Assembly (NCBI GenBank): GCA_900314825.1
Contig: OMWS01000003.1
Location: forward strand, 1 to 64,000
DNA from: an uncultured Veillonellaceae bacterium
GTDB taxonomy: Bacteria > Bacillota > Negativicutes > Selenomonadales > Selenomonadaceae
Direction of reading: 5' to 3'
DNA: 64,000 nucleotides
The position numbers and the translations under genes were made by a program. Below are positions 50,002-50,557 of this stretch, in pieces; the stretch's first letter is position 1, and each line of letters starts with the position of its first letter. Below the pieces are notes generated by a model. That model had not been told where the DNA came from, did no database searches, and saw only the letters and a list, made by a program, of their open reading frames with translations.

Positions 50002-50030
50002 TTGCACAAACACGTCGCAGGTGTTAAAAT
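50002..50030 (+). promoter_or_regulatory. Promoter of the structured RNA
   Basis: TTGCAC at 50002-50007 and TAAAAT at 50025-50030 with a 17-base spacer. No translatable gene follows. Confidence 0.65.
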
Positions 50031-50036
50031 GTAAAC

Positions 50037-50490
50037 CAAAGAAGGGAAGAGCAAACCACCAGAGGCTCGGAGTCCTGGAGGGCGATGATTCTGGAAGGTG
50101 CCTGCCGAAACAGGCTCTCTTCAAATCTATCGGAAAGGATGTGGATTGTTCTGCAGAAACACTTCACCATTCTTTCGCGTCCCTTTGAGACCTAGATGCA
50201 GCGGTGAAGAAAAACACAAGCCAGCGAGGCACAGTGAGATGATACGATGATGGCTCAGGGCTATCGCCGGTCGTACTCGAAGCTATCTGGCAGGTTACGT
50301 AAGACGCATCGAGCTCAAAGAAACGAAGAATGTCCAGCCGTTTTTCACCATCTATGGTTTCTAGAACCACGTCGCCACGTTCCGGCGCTGCTCGAGAGGC
50401 TTCGGGACAGACAAGAGAATACGAGGTATCCGACTATATGTTGATAGTCACGACGTAACGCCCCTGCAGGAATCTGCGGGGGCGTTGCTG
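50037..50490 (+). ncRNA. Probable structured non-coding RNA of unidentified class
   Basis: About 450 bases with its own promoter at 50002 and terminator at 50457, and no open frame with a ribosome site. Visible pairings include ACC-CAGA with TCTG-GGT (50055-50100), CCTG with CAGG at 50101-50114, GATGGC with GCTATC near 50248-50266, GGTT with AACC near 50356-50368, and a long-range stem of GGTGAA-AAAAAC (about 50202-50215) with GTTTTTCACC (about 50340-50349). I could not match it to RNase P, tmRNA, SRP or 6S RNA, a T-box or a known riboswitch. The downstream ilvB has its own promoter. Confidence 0.5.
50457..50488 (+). terminator. Terminator of the structured RNA
   Basis: AACGCCCCTGCA and TGCGGGGGCGTT pair around a short loop. 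The T-run is imperfect (TGTGTTTGGTTTTT). Confidence 0.7.
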
Positions 50491-50528
50491 TGTTTGGTTT
50501 TTAGCCTCTCCTCTTTCAAAATCTTTGC

Positions 50529-50557
50529 TTGTAACTCTGTATACAATCCGATATAAT
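50529..50557 (+). promoter_or_regulatory. ilvBN promoter
   Basis: TTGTAA at 50529-50534 and TATAAT at 50552-50557 with a 17-base spacer. Confidence 0.75.

Follow-up and report, generated by a model that had tools for sequence, protein, structure and literature searches.

A predicted family of independent structured RNAs in the Selenomonadaceae with a mini reading frame at the terminator

RNAIII of Staphylococcus aureus, an Rfam family, is a dual-function regulatory RNA of about 500 nt that carries a short reading frame. tmRNA is a structured RNA with a very short frame of its own. Leader-peptide attenuators have short frames too, the ilvBNC uORF of Corynebacterium (PMC10272879) being one example. 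GOLLD, ROOL and OLE are large ornate bacterial RNAs (PMC12286853), and a long RNA has been described from Lactobacillus salivarius (PMC5643018).

The locus described here, at 50002-50492 between comF and ilvB in a 64,000-nt stretch of DNA (the window), is a predicted independent structured RNA gene that resembles each of these systems in part. Like RNAIII, it is about 500 nt long and structured, with its own promoter and terminator, a short frame and apparently an action in trans. It has no sequence or covariance match to RNAIII, however; its two frames are much shorter, that at the terminator numbering about five codons, and its peptide is unconserved. A short ORF2 (five to six codons in 52 of 58 relatives) is combined with a covarying fold, as in a dual-function RNA, and if our reading is right it would work like one, RNAIII for instance, with no relation seen between the two. 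With tmRNA it shares a length class (about 350–460 nt), structure and helices around a very short frame, but it has no match to the tmRNA model and the genome's tmRNA lies elsewhere. Leader-peptide attenuators similarly have a short frame, a stop codon in a helix strand and a terminator, whereas here the frame stands at the 3' end of the RNA and the downstream gene is unconserved. Like GOLLD, ROOL and OLE, the RNA spans hundreds of bases, has an elaborate conserved structure and forms an independent transcription unit; unlike them, it is restricted to Selenomonadaceae and has no match in phages, plasmids or viral contigs.

In the Rfam scan that the preliminary description of the locus had proposed, none of 4227 Rfam 15 families reached its gathering score within the RNA in the window (E up to 10), and none did so in 12 relatives (E up to 1); the GOLLD, ROOL and OLE models had no match in the window or in those relatives. 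Identity with RNase P, 6S RNA or tmRNA was rejected, the genome's own copies lying elsewhere (298, 57 and 106 bits). Pfam searches of the longer mechanical ORFs of the locus returned nothing. A fragment of the RNA may already stand in the supplementary tables of motif surveys (e.g. PMC8632094, PMC8040213). Separately, the window genome has two tmRNA matches above the cut-off, G000:C133:2588-2932 (106 bits) and G000:C40:19732-20075 (91 bits), and the relatives searched have one or none; G032 (genus g27), 99% complete, has none above the cut-off and only weak tRNA-length matches, its tmRNA being either absent from the assembly or diverged.

The transcription unit is delimited by the following elements.
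50002-50030, plus strand: sigma-70 type promoter, TTGCAC (50002-50007), 17-base spacer, TAAAAT (50025-50030), with an extended -10 (TGT before TAAAAT)
50037-50495, plus strand: RNA of about 455–460 nt, its predicted start 6–7 bases 3' of the -10
50455-50488, plus strand: GC hairpin of the intrinsic terminator, kept in nearly all relatives

The promoter and terminal GC hairpin are those named in the preliminary description, to which we add a TG lying one base ahead of the -10. In every one of the 52 homologs scanned we find a TTG-type -35, a spacer of exactly 17 bases, TGN and TANNNT. From predicted start to terminator the homologs measure 330–600 nt: two genera have 330–370 nt, most members of the window's genus and one further genus about 450, and most of the rest 520–600. 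The window terminator has a weak U tail (TGTGTTTGGTTTTT).

Relatives of the RNA occur in at least 57 Selenomonadaceae genomes from about 16 of 30 genera, some genera being without it, and none was found among about 190 other Negativicutes or about 290 other genomes of the phylum. A first survey, a DNA search of 100 relatives, showed that the entire genus of the window has the RNA, as do other Selenomonadaceae. A model of the 5' core built from sequence alone matched 53 of 189 family genomes, including a chance match in G210, and outside the family no match withstood inspection: L057, L058, L083, L092 and L093, like G210, appear to be coding sequence without the promoter or other elements and were set aside as chance. 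A structured model gained G225, and a middle-domain model gained G100 and G047, with nothing outside the family in 380 class genomes or 299 phylum genomes. Anchoring on a convergent radical-SAM gene led to strongly diverged relatives, G020, G029 and G019 among them, and to diverged members in genera g15, g14 and g24; in the remaining genera nothing recognisable appeared among the matches listed. Of the members, G019 is the weakest: it was identified only by eye, and the middle-domain model does not match it; genus g19 and G227 (a member of g27) fall below the threshold of that model yet match the 5' model. Named carriers include Selenomonas ruminantium HD4 and ATCC 12561, S. montiformis, S. 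bovis, S. ruminis, Mitsuokella and Megamonas. The RNA is single-copy in every genome except the metagenome bin G220, whose two copies (L072, L037) probably reflect a mixed metagenome. In one congener only (G004; L050, minus strand), an insertion of about 130 bases interrupts the 5' domain between CTCTCTTC and GAAAGGATG.

The genes beside the RNA change with lineage. The next gene may be ilvB, rpsB, a cheW-like gene or a convergent radical-SAM gene, and in the window comF remains upstream, but yqeB and the radical-SAM gene no longer flank the RNA. In many Selenomonadaceae the RNA was observed between a divergent yqeB (TIGR03309) and a convergent radical-SAM gene of TIGR04100/TIGR04038 type (L018:523-1362, L018:2125-2808). 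A 5' leader of ilvB, whether riboswitch or attenuator, is suggested by the position of the RNA upstream of that gene in the window, yet ilvB follows it in no other lineage inspected, which contradicts this as a general explanation; ilvB also has its own promoter (TTGTAA-17-TATAAT, 50529-50557) 3' of the RNA terminator, as the preliminary description had proposed, and no Rfam leader matches. The conserved site upstream of a regulated gene that would mark a cis-acting ilv leader or riboswitch was not found among the relatives. We consider such a leader barely credible, and the earlier judgement that the RNA is not simply an ilv leader stands. Since the neighbours change with lineage, a function in cis is unlikely and a trans-acting reading is natural; we infer that the RNA probably acts in trans.

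The predicted fold, whose 5' domain is a three-way junction in which P1 encloses P2 and the hairpin P3, has these helices.
50041-50047 / 50116-50122, plus strand: helix P1, GAAGGGA / TCTCTTC, closing the junction
50048-50103, plus strand: helix P2, ACC (50055-50057) / GGT (50097-50099) and CCAGA (50059-50063) / TCTGG (50090-50094)
50072-50083, plus strand: inner hairpin of P2, GTCC-TGGA-GGGC
50104-50115, plus strand: hairpin P3, GCC-GAAACA-GGC, nearly invariant
50124-50127 / 50144-50147, plus strand: helix P4, AATC / GATT, its loop holding a Shine-Dalgarno-like element
50184-50319, plus strand: long-range helix P5, TTTGAG (50184-50189) / CTCAAA (50314-50319) and GATGC (50195-50199) / GCATC (50306-50310)
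50220-50291, plus strand: helix P6, GCCAG (50220-50224) / CTGGC (50287-50291), UCCAU/AUGGA in other genera
50241-50278, plus strand: hairpin P7, GATACGATGATGGC...GCCGGTCGTACTC

Compensatory base changes, the second check proposed earlier, were present among the relatives. In P1, 98.9% of cells are paired and six of seven pairs have two-sided changes in a model-fitted alignment of 51 distinct sequences; on the sequence-only alignment pairing is 94.9%. The P2 stem shows two-sided changes in 7 of 10 pairs (MAFFT alignment A3), its CCAGA/TCTGG part being judged by eye. P3 reads GCC-GAAAVA-GGC across relatives, with a GACC-GAAAGA-GGTC variant in G049, and P4 is less strong in the window's genus than in other genera. 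For P1–P4 together, sequence-only alignment A3 gives 28 two-sided cells against 11.1 ± 2.6 in shuffles, and alignment A4, a model-fitted set biased toward the structure, gives 124 against 37.6. P5 reads CUGAC..GUGC / GCAC..GUCAG in most genera and is 95–100% paired in 22 sequences, with two-sided changes in eight of nine pairs; such changes affect all four pairs of P6 and eight of nine in P7, that is, 20 of 22 pairs in P5–P7, the helices of the middle domain. In these three helices 55 cells show two-sided changes; shuffles, which ignore the relatedness of the sequences, give 16.5 ± 3.5, and slid versions, which the structure tends to beat because it was derived from the same sequences, at most 21. 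Despite these limits of the controls we regard the predicted fold as secure, because all kinds of bases have been exchanged across genera. The comparative evidence for it is much stronger than the folding-energy signal of the window RNA (z = -2.8 relative to shuffles). The long-range pairing of GGTGAA with TTTTTCACC suggested in the preliminary description is unconserved among relatives: GGTGAAGAAAAAC (50203-50215) can pair with GTTTTTCACC (50340-50349) only in the window, congeners having GCCGCGTTCCCATC at the second site. The broader claim made there, of a structured RNA outside the known classes, gains support from the kept promoter and terminator, compensatory changes far above both controls, the lack of any known family at the locus and a downstream gene that varies between lineages.

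The absence of a long frame also agrees with that description, which had seen no credible frame at all; two short frames at conserved positions (one of them only probable) modify this.
50133-50143, plus strand: GAAAGGATGTG in the P4 loop, complementary to the 16S rRNA 3' end save one base
50151-50195, plus strand: ORF1, probable, CTG start, 14 codons, TAG stop at the foot of P5
50423-50428, plus strand: GAGGTA, Shine-Dalgarno-like element of ORF2 (SD2), predicted at -13 kcal/mol in the window
50432-50449, plus strand: hairpin GACTAT-ATGTTG-ATAGTC with the ORF2 start in its loop, in the window's genus only
50438-50458, plus strand: ORF2, ATG TTG ATA GTC ACG ACG TAA, six codons, the stop overlapping the terminator stem

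Within the P4 loop, 5' of the likely ORF1, GAAAGGAUGUG is invariant, with the forms AAAGGAGGUG and GAGGAGGUG in diverged relatives; for the whole element, G029, a diverged relative, has AAAGGAGGTG, and G019 has GAGGAGGTG. Of the anti-Shine-Dalgarno pairings predicted along the RNA, that of GAAAGGAUGUG is the strongest in most of 29 lineages (-11 to -17 kcal/mol), the 16S rRNA 3' tail, CACCUCCUUUCU, having been read in two relatives. ORF1 starts 16–19 bases 3' of it, with UUG in other genera and CUG in the window's genus, and an in-frame start and stop are present in 55 relatives, mostly 12–14 codons apart, the stop falling within the P5 strand or shortly 5' of it. Substitutions by codon position number 65/47/81, and 58 codon changes are silent against 101 that replace the residue; a conserved ORF1 peptide is thus unsupported, with no clear purifying selection. 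ORF1 is probably a real frame, on evidence that is moderate because the peptide is unconserved, and given its UUG/CUG start and a UGACUAG that closes two frames at once it may be partly chance.

ORF2, like the promoter, terminator and fold, emerges from comparison of the relatives. Of the 58, 49 have it at exactly five codons and three (the window, G227 and G029) at six; its ATG lies about 16 bases 5' of the terminator stem. Among lineage representatives, 23 of 30 have exactly five codons, whereas shuffling the bases 3' of the ATG gives an expectation of 1.3. All three stop codons are used (TAA 44, TAG 7, TGA 4), and they overlap the terminator stem in most relatives. By comparison, only 4 of 136 other terminators, about 3%, have an ATG frame of 4–6 codons ending at the hairpin; the control began as 5 of 137 terminator-like hairpins of the same DNA, from which one family member (G047) was removed. 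Five relatives found after the rule had been seen serve as a small independent test: G020, G047 and G100 have exactly five codons, G225 two and G029 six. Exceptions are genus g19, which lacks ORF2 or has it out of frame, and G017, G019, G023 and G225, where it is altered. SD2 is weak in many genera. The start-codon hairpin at 50432-50449 keeps its pairing in G005 by compensatory change (GATTG-AATGT-CAATC, judged by eye).

That a frame of some five codons abuts the terminator suggests that ribosomes help operate the RNA. Were the RNA instead a plain structural one acting in trans, as a scaffold or an RNP with an unknown protein, the frames would be incidental and the 3' AUG and stop kept for stability or as a motif. 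Fold and promoter are indeed the strongest signals, the ORF1 peptide is unconstrained and ORF2 is absent in g19; but the use of three stops at a single site, the variability of the codons that follow an invariant AUG and a 3% background are hard to obtain without translation, and we judge this explanation rather unlikely. The overlap of the ORF2 stop with the terminator stem in most relatives, and the placing of the ORF1 stop on one strand of a helix, which leader-peptide attenuators share, would also suit a translation-controlled attenuator, in which the 5' arm of the terminator is masked by a ribosome at the ORF2 stop, letting polymerase continue into the neighbouring gene. This seems distinctly unlikely to us, as the next gene varies by lineage, ilvB has its own promoter and readthrough would often yield only antisense RNA. 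Start, length class and stop are kept in both frames, which would be expected of a messenger for micropeptides (9–18 aa from ORF1, about 5 aa from ORF2), for example signals, with the structure controlling translation. The peptides, however, differ widely between genera (for ORF2, MLIVTT, MVINK, MNIHK, MVYTV and MANQK) and no clear excess of silent changes is seen, making such a messenger improbable in our estimation.

We therefore favour, at about an even chance, a new Selenomonadaceae family of independent structured RNAs that would act in trans, with shape or partners set by ribosome occupancy; the ribosome's part in this we infer. The P4 loop would offer a near-perfect Shine-Dalgarno sequence to the short ORF1, and since ORF1 stops at the foot of P5, a ribosome translating it would open P4 and the foot of P5. 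A second ribosome could start on ORF2, where, given the generally known length of a ribosome footprint, its leading edge, some 16 bases beyond the start, would just meet the terminator stem, and the ribosome would fit between the upstream structure and that stem. The RNA might, for instance, sense free initiating ribosomes. More tentatively still, the internal Shine-Dalgarno element and footprint-sized terminal minigene may serve to capture or sense initiating ribosomes with no useful peptide made, a kind of RNA not described before; we hold this version to be possible and somewhat doubtful.

The analysis adds to common rumen and gut bacteria a lineage-wide family of predicted long RNAs with a covariation-supported fold, and some of its carriers are in culture (Selenomonas ruminantium HD4 and ATCC 12561, and Mitsuokella). 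New here is the terminal mini frame of a structured, otherwise noncoding RNA. A five-codon frame whose length is kept while its peptide is free to vary is an unusual sign, suggesting that translation itself, and not its product, is what is used.
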